Below are positions 13,971-26,017 of a stretch of 64,000 bases of DNA, one piece after another. The stretch comes from Malonomonas rubra DSM 5091 (GTDB lineage Bacteria; Desulfobacterota; Desulfuromonadia; Desulfuromonadales; Geopsychrobacteraceae): the NCBI RefSeq assembly GCF_900142125.1, contig NZ_FQZT01000008.1, positions 1 through 64,000 of the forward strand. Reading direction: 5' to 3'. Made by a program: the position numbers and the translations under genes. Below the pieces are notes generated by a model. It did no database searches, was not told the origin of the DNA, and was given only the letters and a program-made list of their open reading frames with translations. Position 1 is the stretch's first letter, and each line of letters opens with the position of its first letter.

Positions 13971-14882
13971 TCATGCAAATGGAAGCGGACGCCCCATAAC
14001 ACTGAAGATACAGTTGACAAAGCTCTGCACCAACTGGTCTTCTCCCCGCTCTGCACTGAAAATGACCGTACGGTTACGCCGATGCGTGAAGCCCTTCACC
14101 TCATGCGCGAGCATCTGACCGTTTTCGAGATACTCCTTAACCATATCCTTCGACATGAAAGAGACCCCGCCACCAGCCAGAACCGTCTGGCAGGTCAAAT
14201 GCAGATCGTCAGAGGTGACCACACCGTTAAAATCTTCCAGCTGCTTGCCATAGCTTTCCAACCCGGCTCGGACTAGCTTTTTAGAGCTACAGCCATCTTT
14301 TCGCGACAAAAGCCGCATTGTCAGCAACGTATCCAGATCGAGCTTTGGAGATGGCAGATTCAGGCTCGGAGAGCTGACAAATGCCAGTTCGTCATCCGGC
14401 AGATCGCAGGTATTGAACTCGCTGATATCGGTTTCGCAGCAATGCTCGACCACAGCCAGATCAAACTCGTGATTACGTACCCCTTCAATCGCTGCATCCG
14501 GGCTGTTGAATATAAACTTCAGATCGGTCGACCGGCTGGTCCCCATCATAAATGAATTTAATACTCGTGGTAGAAAAACCGTGCCGAATGTCGGTGTGCA
14601 GCAGAGGGATATTCGCTGTTTGTTATGCAGGCGCTGCAGGTCGCGAATCAGGGTATCCTGAATCGCCAGAACGCGCTGTGCGCTCTCCATCACCAGTTCA
14701 CCAGCCGATGTCAGTGCCAGTTTGGAGCCGGCCCGATCGATTAATTTATGGCCGAAACGCTCTTCGAGAAATTTGACCCTTTGCGACACAGCAGACTGGG
14801 TCAGGTGAAGCTTTTCAGCCGCCTTGGAAAAACTGCCACATTTAACGGTTGCGACAAGTGTTTTCAGGTAACGCGTATCCAT
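13971..14882 (-). CDS. LysR family transcriptional regulator
   Basis: A 303-residue regulator with start ATG at 14880-14882. The N-terminal winged helix-turn-helix (MDTRYLKTLVATVKCGSFSKAAEKLHLTQ then SAVSQRVKFLEE) is clear. The rest is a periplasmic-binding-protein-like effector domain. It is divergent from the octaheme cytochrome gene at 15163, and LysR proteins commonly control the divergent neighbour, so it may regulate that cytochrome. The effector is not predictable. The effector domain has several Cys residues (CCETD, CDLPD, DGCSSK), which could be redox-active; that is speculation. Confidence 0.9.
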   Translation of the reverse strand: MDTRYLKTLVATVKCGSFSKAAEKLHLTQSAVSQRVKFLEERFGHKLIDRAGSKLALTSAGELVMESAQRVLAIQDTLIRDLQRLHNKQRISLCCTPTFGTVFLPRVLNSFMMGTSRSTDLKFIFNSPDAAIEGVRNHEFDLAVVEHCCETDISEFNTCDLPDDELAFVSSPSLNLPSPKLDLDTLLTMRLLSRKDGCSSKKLVRAGLESYGKQLEDFNGVVTSDDLHLTCQTVLAGGGVSFMSKDMVKEYLENGQMLAHEVKGFTHRRNRTVIFSAERGEDQLVQSFVNCIFSVMGRPLPFA

Positions 14883-15025
14883 CAAAAACTCCGAATATTT
14901 ATATGTAAAACTATAAGCTACACTAATATACACTTGAAAATGTTTGGCTTCAACTCTATTCAAAAACATTATAGCCTGCAGATGAAAACACGGCCACTTA
15001 TGGTAAAATTTTCGCTTCTAAAAGG

Positions 15026-15043: not shown

Positions 15044-15162
15044 AAAAGTGGTGTTTAACTTTGACCGCTTACCGACAGAATTTATCGGGGCTCACGAACG
15101 TTAGCAGCGCCGCCGGCGCACCCCGAAAACTCCAACAGATCAATCCAAAACGGAGGAAAAGG

Positions 15163-16542
15163 ATGAAAGCAAGGAGGCAGATCGCGAAAGCGAAGTTCCT
15201 GATTGCCGTTCTTGTCGTCATGCTGGCCGGCTTTACAGGCTCAGCACTGGCTGCAACGGACCACTCGGGATTCTTCGAAGGAACCCTGGATACCGGGCCT
15301 GACGTCACCAAGGCCTGCCTTGAGTGCCATGAGGATGCGGCGGAGCAAGTGATGGGAACCACCCATTGGACCTGGTCGAGCAAGCAGAAAATCGACGGCA
15401 AGACGGTTCACCGCGGCAAAGTCAACGCACTCAACAATTTCTGAGTGTCCATAGAGGCTAACTGGCCGCGTTGTACGAGCTGCCATGTTGGCTATGGCTG
15501 GCAGTCTGCCAGCTTCGATTTCAAAGACCAAAGCAAAGTTGATTGCCTGGTGTGCCACGACACCACCGGCGAATACAAAAAAACCCCGACCGGTGCCGGC
15601 ATGCCCGACCCGGTTGTCGATCTTCTCTACGTTGCCCGCAATGTCGGCAAGAGCTCCCGCCAGACCTGTGGTAACTGCCACTTCTTCGGCGGCGGCGGCG
15701 ATGCCGTCAAGCACGGCGATCTGGACAGCAGCATCGCCAACCCGACCCGTGATATCGACGTTCACATGGCGACCGATGGTGGCAATTTCACCTGTGAAGG
15801 CTGCCACGTCACAAAGAATCACGACATCACCGGGAATGCGATGGTCGTCTCCCCGAGCAACCAGAAGCATATCGGCTGCGAAGGCTGCCACCAGGGAACC
15901 CCGCATTACGAGTCGATTCTCAACAAACACATGAAGAAGGTCGCTTGTCAGACCTGCCACATTCCGACGTTCGCCAAGAAAGTGCCGACCAAAACCTCTT
16001 GGGACTGGTCAACAGCCGGCAGCGATATGAAAGGCGGCAAAGACAAGTACGGCAAACCGACCTTCGCCAAAAAGAAGGGCAGCTTTACCTGGGGCAAGAA
16101 TATCGTTCCGACCTACGCCTGGTACAACGGTCAGAGTCATGTCTACCAACTGGGCGACAAAATGGACCCGACCAAGGTAACCAAGCTGAACGAGCCGATT
16201 GGTAGCAAGGATGACCCCAAATCGAAGCTCTATCCGTTCAAAAACCACAAGGGCAAGCAGCCGTACGACAAGAAGAACAACTACTTCACCACCGTTCACC
16301 TGTTCGGCAAAGGCGGCTACTGGAAGACCTTCGATTGGGAAAAATCGATTGCTGCCGGCATGAAGTCAAGTGGTGTTCCCTTCAGCGGTGAGTACGATTT
16401 TGCAGAAACCATCATGTTCTGGCCGATCAACCACATGGTCTCCCCGGCAGAACAGGCCCTCGATTGTCTCGACTGCCACGGAGACAAGGGACGGCTTGAC
16501 TGGAAAGCTCTCGGCTACAAGTCCGATCCGATGAAGAAGTAA
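15163..16542 (+). CDS. Octaheme c-type cytochrome, OTR family, with in-frame UGA (probable selenocysteine 94)
   Basis: The start ATG follows GGAGG. A signal peptide ends near ALA-ATD (residue 30). Eight CXXCH motifs are present: CLECH, CTSCH, CLVCH, CGNCH, CEGCH, CEGCH, CQTCH and CLDCH. The layout matches octaheme tetrathionate-reductase-family cytochromes. The frame is interrupted once, by TGA at 15442-15444 (codon 94), in the context NNF-[TGA]-VSIEANWPRCTSCH. Two paralogs in this window have NNYC followed by the same 14-residue spacing to the CXXCH, so the TGA replaces a conserved Cys. In OTR structures a Cys in this region lies near the catalytic heme. With Sec the product has 459 residues, matching the paralogs (460 and 464). 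A nonsense mutation or sequencing error is the alternative, but codons after the TGA remain fully conserved. Substrate is unknown; selenite, tetrathionate, sulfite or nitrogen oxyanions are possible. Confidence 0.85.
15464..15484 (+). promoter_or_regulatory. Candidate bacterial SECIS element downstream of the UGA
   Basis: Arms GGC-GC (15464-15466, 15468-15469) and GC-GCC (15479-15480, 15482-15484) form a stem with one C/T mismatch. The 9-nt loop is GTTGTACGA. The loop begins 25 nt after the UGA, within the usual bacterial window of about 16-37 nt, and starts with G, as in known bSECIS elements. The stem is short. The same bases encode the next heme motif, so the structure is constrained by coding. 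No folding energy was computed. Confidence 0.5.
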
Positions 16543-16568
16543 TTCGCTTCTTTGTTTTGATTTTATTG

Positions 16569-16602
16569 CCCCCAGCGCAGCAGCGCTGGGGGTTTCTTTT
16601 TT
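16569..16602 (+). terminator. Terminator after the octaheme cytochrome gene
   Basis: A perfect 10-bp stem CCCCCAGCGC / GCGCTGGGGG with loop AGCA is followed by TTTCTTTTTT. It separates the cytochrome gene from yedF, so the two may be separate transcripts unless there is read-through. Confidence 0.9.
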
Positions 16603-16676: not shown

Positions 16677-17273
16677 ATGATTAATCTTGATTACAGTGAA
16701 TTTCAGTGTCCCTACCCGGTCGTGGAAACCCGCAAGCAAATGCTGGCGAACCCGGGAGAGACTATTTCTGTCCTTGTCGGTGACCAGACAGCGAAAGAAA
16801 ACGTCAGCCGATTGGCTGAAAAAATGGGCTACCAGGTCAACTGGCAATCAAAGCAGTTGAAGTACGAGTTGACTCTCACCCCAGCGGGTGAAGAAGCCGC
16901 CCCACAACCACAACCCGTGACAACATCCAGCAACGATGGAGACACCGTCATCTACTGCGGAAGCGACACCATGGGCCAGGGCGACCCGGAGCTGGGGCGT
17001 ATTCTATTGAAAAACTTCCTCGCAACGCTGTTGGAAATGGACCCGCTTCCCGACACCATTTTCTTCGTCAACTCCGGTGTCAACATGGTCTGCAGCGGGT
17101 CGGAAGCGCTCGAAGCACTGAACACGTTGGCATGCAAAGGTGTTGATATCGCCTCCTGCGGGCTCTGTCTTGATTTTTACAATCTGCAGGCTGAAGTCCA
17201 GGTCGGCCGGGTCACCAACATGTTCGATACGGTCGAAACACAGATGCGTGCCGCACGTGTTATCTGCCCGTAG
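16677..17273 (+). CDS. yedF: Sulfurtransferase-like selenium metabolism protein YedF
   Basis: A 198-residue cytoplasmic protein. The N-terminal TusA-like domain has the CPYP motif (C11) used in persulfide chemistry. A Pro/Gln-rich linker (about 78-88) follows. The C-terminal DsrE/F-like domain ends with ASCGLCLDFYNLQAEVQVGRVTNMFDTVE, the hallmark of the YedF family found in genomes that use selenium. Its exact reaction is not established; a role in selenium delivery is presumed from co-occurrence with selD. AAGGAG precedes the ATG. Lying directly after the UGA-containing cytochrome gene supports a selenium interpretation of that gene. Confidence 0.9.
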   Translation: MINLDYSEFQCPYPVVETRKQMLANPGETISVLVGDQTAKENVSRLAEKMGYQVNWQSKQLKYELTLTPAGEEAAPQPQPVTTSSNDGDTVIYCGSDTMGQGDPELGRILLKNFLATLLEMDPLPDTIFFVNSGVNMVCSGSEALEALNTLACKGVDIASCGLCLDFYNLQAEVQVGRVTNMFDTVETQMRAARVICP

Positions 17274-23021: not shown

Positions 23022-24404
23022 TTACTTCTTGCGAGCCCATTTCGGATTTTTCATCGGATCGCCCTGGTAACCAAGAGCTTTCCAATCCATACGACCTTCA
23101 TCACCATGACAGTCAAGGCAGTTGAGTGACTCGCCAGCCTCGGATACCATGTGATTGATGCGCCAGAACATCTGGGTTTCAACGAAGTCAACTTTGCCGC
23201 TAAACGGCAGTCCGGCTGCCTTCATACCCATCTCGGCCGACTTCTTCCAGTCGAAAGTATGCCAGTACCCGTCATCATCGATCTGATGAACAACCAGCAG
23301 GGTTTTGTATTCCGGGTCGTAGGCCTGCTTACCACGCATAACTTTGAACGGATAGATACGTGCACCTTTATCTTTGAGCGAGGAAGTCGGACCGGCAATC
23401 GTCAGCACTTTCTTCGGATCTTCAATTTTCTGGCCACGCACATAGTTGACAGCTTTACCGGTTTCGAACCAAGCATACTCAGGCGGAACCATCTTGCCGT
23501 ACTTCATGTCGCCCTTCTTCTTTACGTAAAGAGGCTTGCCATGCTTGTCCTTGGTCACATTGCGCTCCGAGTCACCGGAAGTGGACCAATCCCACCAGGT
23601 TTTGGTCGGAATTTCCTTGGAGTAATAAGGAATGTGGCAGGTCTGGCAAGCAATAGAGGCAACGTGCTCGTTCAAACGGGACTCTTCATGCGGAGCTGCC
23701 GTGTGGCAATCTTCACAGCTGAGCTGGCTTTCTGCGCCCGGCGAAACGCCGAGGGAGTTACCAGGAATAACATGCTCTTTGGTCACGTGGCAGGCCTGGC
23801 AGGCAAAGTCCTGGCCGTCGAGGCCCATGTGGACATCAGTCTTTTTCTCCGGGTAGGACATGGAGGAGTCGAGGTCACCGTGCTTGACGGCGTCGCCACC
23901 ACCGCCATAGAAGTGGCAGGTACCACAGTTATCGCGTACCGGCTGACCAACGTTCTGAGCAATCCGCAGCAGGTTGAGGCCATTGAAAACCCGGCCGCCA
24001 CGAGCTTTTAGATAGGTACCTGTCGTATCGTGACACACCAGGCAATCGACCTTGGTCTTGTCACTGAAATCGAAACTGTCATCTTCCCAGCCATAACCAG
24101 CGTGGCAGCGGTTACAGGATGGCTCATTGGTTCTGATCTGCGTACAATAGTTGTTGAAAGTGTTCTTCTTGCCGGCTTTCACTTTTTTGCCATCGATCAC
24201 CTGCTCCAGGTTCCAGGTCCAGTGACTCGTCAACATGAAAGCATCGGCCTGCTCCTCATGGCATTCAAGGCAGACTTTTGTGACATCGGGACCGGTTTTG
24301 AAGTCGCCCTGAACATATTCTTTGTGCGGGTTAGCAGCCACCGCCGGCACTGCCAGCATGGCCACTGCGAAAAGGGCTAGAAGTACATTCTTGGTCTGTT
24401 GCAT
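23022..24404 (-). CDS. Octaheme c-type cytochrome, OTR family (Cys form, copy 2)
   Basis: A 460-residue exported cytochrome; the ATG at 24402-24404 follows GGAGG with 7-nt spacing. The signal peptide ends near AVA-ANP. Eight heme motifs are present: CLECH, CNRCH, CLVCH, CGTCH, CQACH, CEDCH, CQTCH and CLDCH. Cys87 in NNYC (TGT codon) is the residue replaced by UGA in the copy at 15163. Family members include octaheme tetrathionate reductase and related periplasmic multiheme oxidoreductases; the substrate here is not known. It has its own terminator and lies in tandem with copy 3, separated by another terminator, so each is probably its own transcript. Confidence 0.92.
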   Translation of the reverse strand: MQQTKNVLLALFAVAMLAVPAVAANPHKEYVQGDFKTGPDVTKVCLECHEEQADAFMLTSHWTWNLEQVIDGKKVKAGKKNTFNNYCTQIRTNEPSCNRCHAGYGWEDDSFDFSDKTKVDCLVCHDTTGTYLKARGGRVFNGLNLLRIAQNVGQPVRDNCGTCHFYGGGGDAVKHGDLDSSMSYPEKKTDVHMGLDGQDFACQACHVTKEHVIPGNSLGVSPGAESQLSCEDCHTAAPHEESRLNEHVASIACQTCHIPYYSKEIPTKTWWDWSTSGDSERNVTKDKHGKPLYVKKKGDMKYGKMVPPEYAWFETGKAVNYVRGQKIEDPKKVLTIAGPTSSLKDKGARIYPFKVMRGKQAYDPEYKTLLVVHQIDDDGYWHTFDWKKSAEMGMKAAGLPFSGKVDFVETQMFWRINHMVSEAGESLNCLDCHGDEGRMDWKALGYQGDPMKNPKWARKK

Positions 24405-24622: not shown

Positions 24623-26017
24623 TTACTTGGTACGCGCTGCTGACTTATCTTTCATCGGATCAGCGCTGTAACCGAGTGCAGCCCAGTCAAGGCGGCCATT
24701 ATCACCGTGGCAGTCGAGGCAGGAAAGCGCCTGCTCAGCCGGTGAAACCATGTGGTTCTGGCGCCAGTACATTTCAGTGGCGACGAAATCGTACTTACCG
24801 CTGTACTTCACTCCGCCAGCTTCGCTACCGAGGCGGGCAGCCTTGTCCCAGTCAAAATCGTTCCAGTAGCCACCCTCGTTGGCAACCTTTGCAGTCAGCA
24901 GATAGTTGTACTCGGTATCGTAAATCTGCTTGCCGCGCATAATCTTGAACGGCGCAATCTTAGCGGTCATATCGTTACGATCACCCAGAGGGTAGGCAAT
25001 TTTAACCACTTTGTTCGGATCGATTTTCTGACCTGGCAGATAGGGCTTACCTTGACCATTGGACCAGAAGTACTCTGGAACCAGTTTCTTGACGTACTCC
25101 ATCTTGCCCTTCTTTTTGACATAAGTCGTGTGACCATGCTCTTTCTCAGGGCCACGATTCGGATCGCCAGCTTGCGACCAATCCCAGCTTGTCTTTGTCG
25201 CAATGTCCTTTGCAACAACAGGGATGTGACATGTCTGGCAGGCAACCGTATCGATGTGAGCATTCAGGATGCTCTCCGAGTGAACCTCTTCACCGTGACA
25301 CTGAGTACAGGTGGTGTGATTCTTGCCGCTCGGACCAACATACAGGGAGTGCCCTGAAATCTGGTGGTCCTCAGTCGTGTGACACTCGATACAGGCAAAG
25401 TCATTCCCCTCGACATCCATGTGAACATCGATTTCTTTTGTCGGGTAAGACATGCTGCTGTCGAGGTCGCCGTGCTTAACGGCATCACCGCCACCACCGA
25501 AGAAGTGACAGGAACCACATTGATCACGTCCTGGTTTACCAACGTTCTGAGCAACGTCAAGCAACGGAACAACTTTACTCGGCATGCCGGCACCATTACC
25601 CATTTTCCCGTAGCGACCGGTGGTATCGTGGCAGACCAGGCAGTCGATATTTTCCGGGTTGTCAAAATCGAAAGTGTCAACATCAGTCATACCGTAACCG
25701 GCGTGACACTTGGCGCAGAACTGCTCGTTACCACCATTGACGGCAGTACAGTAATTGTTAATCAGGTTCTTTTTACCGATGAAAACTTTTTTGCCGTCAA
25801 CTTCCTGCTCTTGTGCCCACTGCCAGTGGACGGTCTTCATGAAATCTTTTGCCGCGCCCTTGTGGCATTTCAGGCATTGACGGGTGACATCCTGCGGCTC
25901 GTTGATCGGCCCCTTGATCCGGTTTTTGTGGCTGCCAGCAATCGCGGGTACAGCAATCAAGCCGATCAGCAACAGCATCAGACCAATCTGAGACATACGG
26001 GTAATCATTTTCTGCAT
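24623..26017 (-). CDS. Octaheme c-type cytochrome, OTR family (Cys form, copy 3)
   Basis: A 464-residue exported cytochrome. The signal peptide ends near AIA-GSH. Eight heme motifs are present: CLKCH, CAKCH, CLVCH, CGSCH, CIECH, CTQCH, CQTCH and CLDCH. Cys90 in NNYC (TGT codon) matches Cys87 of copy 2 and the UGA of copy 1. The region CGSCHFFGGGGDAVKHGDLDSSMSYP is nearly identical in all three copies. GGAAAGGA lies upstream of the ATG with somewhat long spacing. The ~200 bp upstream is A+T-rich and holds no gene. Sequence identity to copy 2 suggests old duplication rather than a recent one. Confidence 0.92.
   Translation of the reverse strand: MQKMITRMSQIGLMLLLIGLIAVPAIAGSHKNRIKGPINEPQDVTRQCLKCHKGAAKDFMKTVHWQWAQEQEVDGKKVFIGKKNLINNYCTAVNGGNEQFCAKCHAGYGMTDVDTFDFDNPENIDCLVCHDTTGRYGKMGNGAGMPSKVVPLLDVAQNVGKPGRDQCGSCHFFGGGGDAVKHGDLDSSMSYPTKEIDVHMDVEGNDFACIECHTTEDHQISGHSLYVGPSGKNHTTCTQCHGEEVHSESILNAHIDTVACQTCHIPVVAKDIATKTSWDWSQAGDPNRGPEKEHGHTTYVKKKGKMEYVKKLVPEYFWSNGQGKPYLPGQKIDPNKVVKIAYPLGDRNDMTAKIAPFKIMRGKQIYDTEYNYLLTAKVANEGGYWNDFDWDKAARLGSEAGGVKYSGKYDFVATEMYWRQNHMVSPAEQALSCLDCHGDNGRLDWAALGYSADPMKDKSAARTK

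Follow-up and report, generated by a model that had tools for sequence, protein, structure and literature searches.

We report here an octaheme cytochrome gene of the OTR family in Malonomonas rubra in which, on the strength of sequence comparison, an in-frame UGA is very probably read as selenocysteine (Sec) in place of a conserved cysteine. The gene lies in the window, the 64,000-nucleotide stretch of contig NZ_FQZT01000008.1 that was analysed. The Sec reading is well supported because the UGA falls on a cysteine column and because relatives, in many other bacteria that reduce sulfur compounds or metals, carry UGA at the same codon. The initial annotation had proposed a Sec-containing octaheme cytochrome, and this overall reading is supported by the cysteine column, by the Sec machinery of the genome and by the UGA-type relatives. 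The evidence for Sec that is specific to this gene, namely its hairpin and its close sisters, is only moderate. The features of the locus are given in Table 1.

Table 1. Features of the OTR locus and of the neighbouring genes in the window.
Feature	Position	Strand	Basis
LysR regulator, divergent, multiheme-cytochrome-associated type	13971..14969	-	NF041036, 437.1 bits (cut-off 210)
GGAGG, likely ribosome-binding site, 6 bases 5′ of ATG	15152..15156	+	sequence
OTR-family octaheme c-type cytochrome gene, readthrough of TGA codon 94	15163..16542	+	TIGR04315, 604.7 bits (cut-off 375); 1SP3, E 4.9e-176
Likely signal peptide, about residues 1-30, KARRQIAKAKFLIAVLVVMLAG...ALA	15163..15252	+	read by eye
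Eight CxxCH heme sites, all intact, residues 52, 104, 128, 169, 211, 239, 262, 435	15316..16479	+	sequence
TGA codon 94, proposed Sec; Cys64 column of 1SP3	15442..15444	+	translation, alignment
Candidate bSECIS hairpin, 13 pairs, -17.1 kcal/mol	15456..15493	+	folding and rule-based score
Lys183, equivalent to Lys153 of 1SP3	15709..15711	+	alignment, Lys in 128/128 rows
Terminator-like hairpin between cytochrome gene and yedF, 11 pairs, TTCTTTTTTC tail	16568..16593	+	consensus scan only
YedF, sulfurtransferase-like selenium metabolism protein	16677..17273	+	TIGR03527, 195.5 bits (cut-off 110)
Cys-containing OTR paralog, NNYC	23022..24404	-	TIGR04315, 573.9 bits
Cys-containing OTR paralog, NNYC	24623..26017	-	TIGR04315, 565.5 bits

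With the TGA translated as Sec, the gene gives a protein of 459 residues with a single internal TGA, and the frame closes with TAA. Translation thus confirmed that the frame 15163-16542 is open save for codon 94, and the eight heme sites that had been described as intact were all found. Three PDB entries match the protein, and 1SP3, the octaheme tetrathionate reductase presumably from Shewanella, is the only one that spans the whole chain (58% identity, 246 of 421 aligned residues). The phmmer alignment is free of gaps before codon 94 and places the UGA on residue 64 of 1SP3. The Cys64 and Lys153 columns of 1SP3 match the window protein, the Cys64 column holding Cys in 1SP3 and the proposed Sec in the window protein. 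In the 1SP3 structure, Cys64 and Lys153 presumably lie at catalytic heme 2, where Lys153 would be the unusual heme ligand; the available passages of the OTR papers contain no statement on Cys64.

The Cys64 column is strictly conserved, as it holds Cys or UGA in 128/128 aligned rows (UGA being written as Cys) and in 185/185 rows of a larger alignment, where Trp never occurs. The genome contains four OTR genes, the window gene and three Cys paralogs. As the initial annotation had claimed, both paralogs of the window, 23022-24404 and 24623-26017, have the Cys of their NNYC motif where the window gene has the TGA; the window protein is 55% and 53% identical to them. The spacing between the UGA and the next CxxCH had also been described as equal in the three genes; this holds for paralog 23022-24404, but paralog 24623-26017 has one additional residue (NNYCTAVNGGNEQFCAKCH). 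Conservation on both sides of the TGA, also claimed from the letters, proved to be complete: the window protein keeps all 81 near-invariant columns, and 70 of these lie after the TGA. The window protein shares 70.4% identity with the best Cys row and 52.2% with the best Sec row.

To collect UGA-type relatives, 84,980 species genomes were searched for the DNA pattern NNxU followed by nine residues and CxxCHxGY. This returned at least 117 other OTR genes with UGA at the codon of the Cys64 column. The UGA/Cys exchange, which the initial annotation had suggested looking for in homologs, is abundant. An OTR-like frame flanks the TGA on both sides in all 117 listed loci, some stretches ending soon after the TGA. 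Eight CxxCH motifs are present in 45 of them, thirteen in 41 and another number in 31, of which 25 run into the end of the stretch. By record title, the listed loci belong mostly to Desulfobacterota groups, and two are from Desulfuromonas or Desulfuromonadaceae. Two UGA-type OTR genes (L152 and L167) were found outside Desulfobacterota, in records titled Anaerolineae, where transfer or binning error is possible. Two further UGA-type loci (L155 and L164) have frames of 1024 and 1110 residues between stops, together with variant hairpins.

A profile search of a 395-genome sample of the phylum gave 81 OTR matches over the cut-off. Exactly one TGA is present in 31 of them, the window gene included, and the other 50 are stop-free; the Cys/Sec swap thus appears to be common in OTR. 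Neither TAA nor TAG occurs in any of the 81 matches, and the unrelated, scattered stops that the initial annotation had named as refuting its reading are not seen among them. Among 28 new loci taken from this search, 12 have a TGA, and in all 12 it stands at the codon of the Cys64 column. Broken copies do occur among weaker matches; below the cut-off, two matches contain a TGA and one a TAG. The two with TGA are distant OTR-like sequences of ~188 bits, each with one internal TGA (G425:C98:15477-16670 and G534:C73:4426-5628). Closer to M. rubra, the 44 genomes of the family include one OTR fragment with both TGA and TAG (G040). Among the matches listed of 277 class genomes (down to 505.9 bits), no OTR besides the window gene has an in-frame stop, and neither these matches nor those of the 44 family genomes include a close relative that shares the UGA.

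The genome, of 42 contigs, encodes a full Sec system. Indeed, the search for selA, selB, selC and selD recovered all four over their cut-offs: selA at 587.9 bits, selB at 352.7 bits, the tRNA-Sec gene selC at 69.9 bits and selD, which itself has one internal TGA, at 358.1 bits. The genes selD, selB and selA are consecutive on contig C29 and selC lies elsewhere. The formate dehydrogenase gene fdhA (1324.1 bits) has one internal TGA as well, and a hairpin whose loop is GGUCU lies after its UGA. We also considered the presence of tRNA-Sec as a means of discriminating between the two OTR types, and found it uninformative, as it is over the cut-off in 28/29 genomes that have a TGA-type OTR and in 36/39 that have Cys-type OTRs only. 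Apart from these genes, a weak YedF-type match of 21.6 bits, restricted to the N-terminal part and with one internal TGA (G000:C29:448525-448779), may represent one more selenoprotein of the genome.

Of the 117 listed Sec loci, 113 have one of two near-fixed, SECIS-like hairpin types after the UGA. The first, GCAACGAGGCTCGTTGC, is present in 71 loci and the second, GGTGC-AG(G or T)T-GCACC, in 42, the remaining four being variants. The first type fixes the codons of SNEARC, which are therefore frozen, and the second accounts for the extra Cys in NWCRC. Each type, seen in the 60 bases that follow the TGA (e.g. in L091 and L078), was found in separate parts of the tree. The hairpin of the window gene matches neither of them. 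Its apical loop, GUUGUACGA at 15470-15478, consists of 9 bases with G first and is situated 25 nt after the UGA; a second fold extends the stem to 15447-15498.

Plain folding energy did not single out the window hairpin, with p values of 0.12 and 0.16 for stretches of 51 and 57 bases, 0.40 for the shortest and 0.31 for the longest stretch. A folding z as low as that of the window gene is reached by 11/55 Cys homologs, a separate folding run gave z -1.27, and on the short stretch the window z is -0.27 versus a mean of -1.48 for Sec rows. Against synonymous shuffles, p was 0.41-0.83 for fdhA and 0.11-0.22 for selD over four stretch lengths. Since plain energy failed to separate the known Sec genes of the genome from chance, we adopted a rule-based score of the bSECIS type, its rules being modelled on published criteria. 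These rules are passed by the window hairpin, by 70/71 Sec rows and by 13/55 Cys homologs, as well as by 27/122 Cys codons and 930/5702 codons of 13 hand-picked window ORFs; for selD, the hairpin accepted lies 33 nt after the UGA, the nearest one being rejected. The energy of -17.1 kcal/mol is reached at 44/5702 codons, 1/122 Cys codons, 0/55 Cys homologs and 1/71 Sec rows, and by 90/3000 synonymous shuffles, p values that are weakened by the choice of this score after plain energy had failed and by an earlier version having also been tried.

With four redundant OTR genes in the genome, the window gene might instead have undergone a recent nonsense mutation (TGC or TGT to TGA), or its TGA might be an artefact of assembly; the product would then be a short dead fragment. 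The nearest relatives indeed have Cys, one transversion away, and the three Cys paralogs would make loss of the window copy tolerable. This explanation also fits the lack of a sister with TGA among the matches listed of the 277 class genomes, the only moderate SECIS evidence for the window gene and the existence of broken OTR copies elsewhere (G040 and G319). We nevertheless consider it unlikely in view of where the TGA stands. A single substitution could create a stop at 134 of the 459 codons of the window gene, and at 115-125 codons in the cores (418-421 codons) of three related genes; for TGA specifically, these four genes offer 30-37 codons each. With ~115-134 possible one-step stops, the TGA is nonetheless at the one column where at least 117 other OTR genes have UGA, which is beyond chance. 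Moreover, the gene shows no further lesion. Compared with L018, dN is 0.236 and dS 1.42 before the TGA, and dN 0.277 and dS 1.67 after it, giving a dN/dS of ~0.17 on both sides, with dS near saturation and not computable for some pairs. The intact columns and these ratios indicate that the gene has not been decaying for long, a kind of test to which a very recent mutation, leaving the same intact picture, would be invisible.

We also weighed the synthesis of two polypeptides, the first ending at the TGA and the second restarting at the GTG that directly adjoins it, from which an ORF runs from 15445 to 16542. The codon after the UGA is likewise GTG in 35 and ATG in 10 of the 117 listed Sec loci, but it is neither in the other 72. 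In addition, hemes of c-type cytochromes are attached in the periplasm, and export by a signal peptide is needed. Lacking a signal peptide, the second part could not receive its seven hemes there, and we regard a restart as very improbable. Readthrough of the UGA by a near-cognate tRNA, inserting for instance Trp or Cys without selenium, is compatible with the sequence; we hold it to be scarcely credible in a genome with a full Sec system and at a column where every row of both alignments has Cys or UGA, and never Trp.

The history of Cys and Sec in OTR proteins was examined in quick trees, for which the Sec column was masked and the majority of truncated rows (under 330 residues) were left out; branch support is by SH-aLRT alone. 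The window gene groups with 42 Cys rows in a 128-row tree (SH-aLRT 99) and lies inside 38 Cys rows in a tree of 125 rows, obtained by thinning 185 (SH-aLRT 99). The 125-row tree needs seven Sec/Cys changes, at least four of which are forced by well supported branches, and the test on the 128-row quick tree rejected a topology in which all Sec rows share one origin (p-AU 2.3e-48). These phylogenies thus argue that several Sec/Cys exchanges took place in OTR history. The AU test did not reject a clade uniting the window gene with a 33-row Sec group (p-AU 0.43). The chances appear evenly balanced that the window gene underwent its own Cys-to-Sec conversion, with its own hairpin, apart from the conversion or conversions of the large Sec groups. 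If it did, a single genome with one Sec OTR and three Cys paralogs would offer a natural set of Sec/Cys pairs for a multiheme reductase.

The OTR family is already in print as a selenoprotein family, and the window gene is a further member. Indeed, one table row of a 2026 review lists TIGR04315, the family of the window gene, as a GenBank-annotated selenoprotein with one Sec per protein and no motif, and the available passages of the review give neither site nor distribution nor SECIS for OTR (PMC13188914). No fuller treatment of Sec in OTR was found in the literature searched, most subscription papers falling outside the search, and the main texts of the deep-Sep paper (PMC12013277) and of PMC1242214 mention neither cytochrome nor heme. 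Unlike most other UGA-type OTR genes collected in this analysis, the window gene lacks both common hairpins, and it stands among Cys forms.

The initial annotation had also mentioned that multiheme cytochromes split by UGA were suspected in Geobacter relatives. A precedent does exist in ExtKL (GSU2937-2936, NF040886) of Geobacter, which the available passages describe as a putative selenocytochrome with five hemes (PMC5877670, PMC1914089); like the window gene, it is a multiheme cytochrome gene split by UGA, but it belongs to a different family. NF040886 gave no match to the window protein at E 0.001, and its best match in the genome scored 32.9 bits (cut-off 250).

Ordinary annotation can split UGA-type OTR genes in two. 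In Thermosulfurimonas dismutans, whose genome holds a UGA-type OTR (L111), the available passages of two papers name the OTR as TDIS_1882 (PMC4911364) and as TDIS_1881 (PMC5276818), and we infer that these may be the two halves of one UGA-split gene. The second of these papers, in the passages available, suggested that OTR may be the nitrite reductase that had yet to be identified in this organism (PMC5276818), and a Sec enzyme may thus have been overlooked in nitrate ammonification. For M. rubra, a role of OTR as the sole nitrite reductase of the genome is unsupported, and three NrfA-like matches were found, all below the cut-off (best 529.2 versus 692.5 bits).

For the window gene, we infer the following mechanism. 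SelB and Sec-tRNA would read the UGA, aided by the hairpin just downstream. The cytochrome chain would be exported to the periplasm by means of the likely signal peptide recognised by eye, and the eight hemes would then be attached. The selenol may lie beside the Lys-ligated heme. There, it could tune or join the reduction of a compound of oxidised sulfur, nitrogen or selenium, a putative substrate range; typical activities of the OTR family are the reduction of tetrathionate, nitrite or hydroxylamine. Selenium beside a catalytic heme would be unusual chemistry, and the role of the conserved OTR cysteine is easiest to test where it has been naturally swapped.

YedF, whose gene follows the cytochrome gene, was considered as a Sec-specific context and rejected. 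By tblastn, YedF was found beside no other OTR in the 1.5-kb flanks of the G loci or in the stretches of up to 8 kb of the 117 listed Sec loci. Within the 44 family genomes, seven further ones (G003, G006, G007, G010, G014, G029 and G034) have it, by coordinates, at a distance of ~2.6-4.4 kb from an OTR of the Cys type. This proximity to Cys-type OTRs points to a shared synteny, which would link the OTR locus, and not the Sec form, to sulfur or selenium chemistry.

Finally, 41 of the 117 listed Sec loci represent a 13-heme Sec form of OTR (e.g. L122:1231-3378). Models of cytochrome c3 match the N-terminal region of L122, the one 13-heme relative that was scanned. A profile scan of the upstream genes of L122 and of L140, the latter from the sulfate reducer Desulfosarcina widdelii, placed the 13-heme gene downstream of genes for an HmcB/HybA-like FeS protein and an NrfD-type protein. 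By tblastn over 80 listed loci, this pair was found in none of the 22 other loci with at least 2.8 kb upstream, and both genes were present in 29 of the 30 loci that have at least 10 CxxCH motifs and at least 2.8 kb upstream. In this respect, the 13-heme Sec relatives resemble HybAB and Hmc-type membrane modules, unlike the window gene, whose two adjoining genes encode LysR and YedF.
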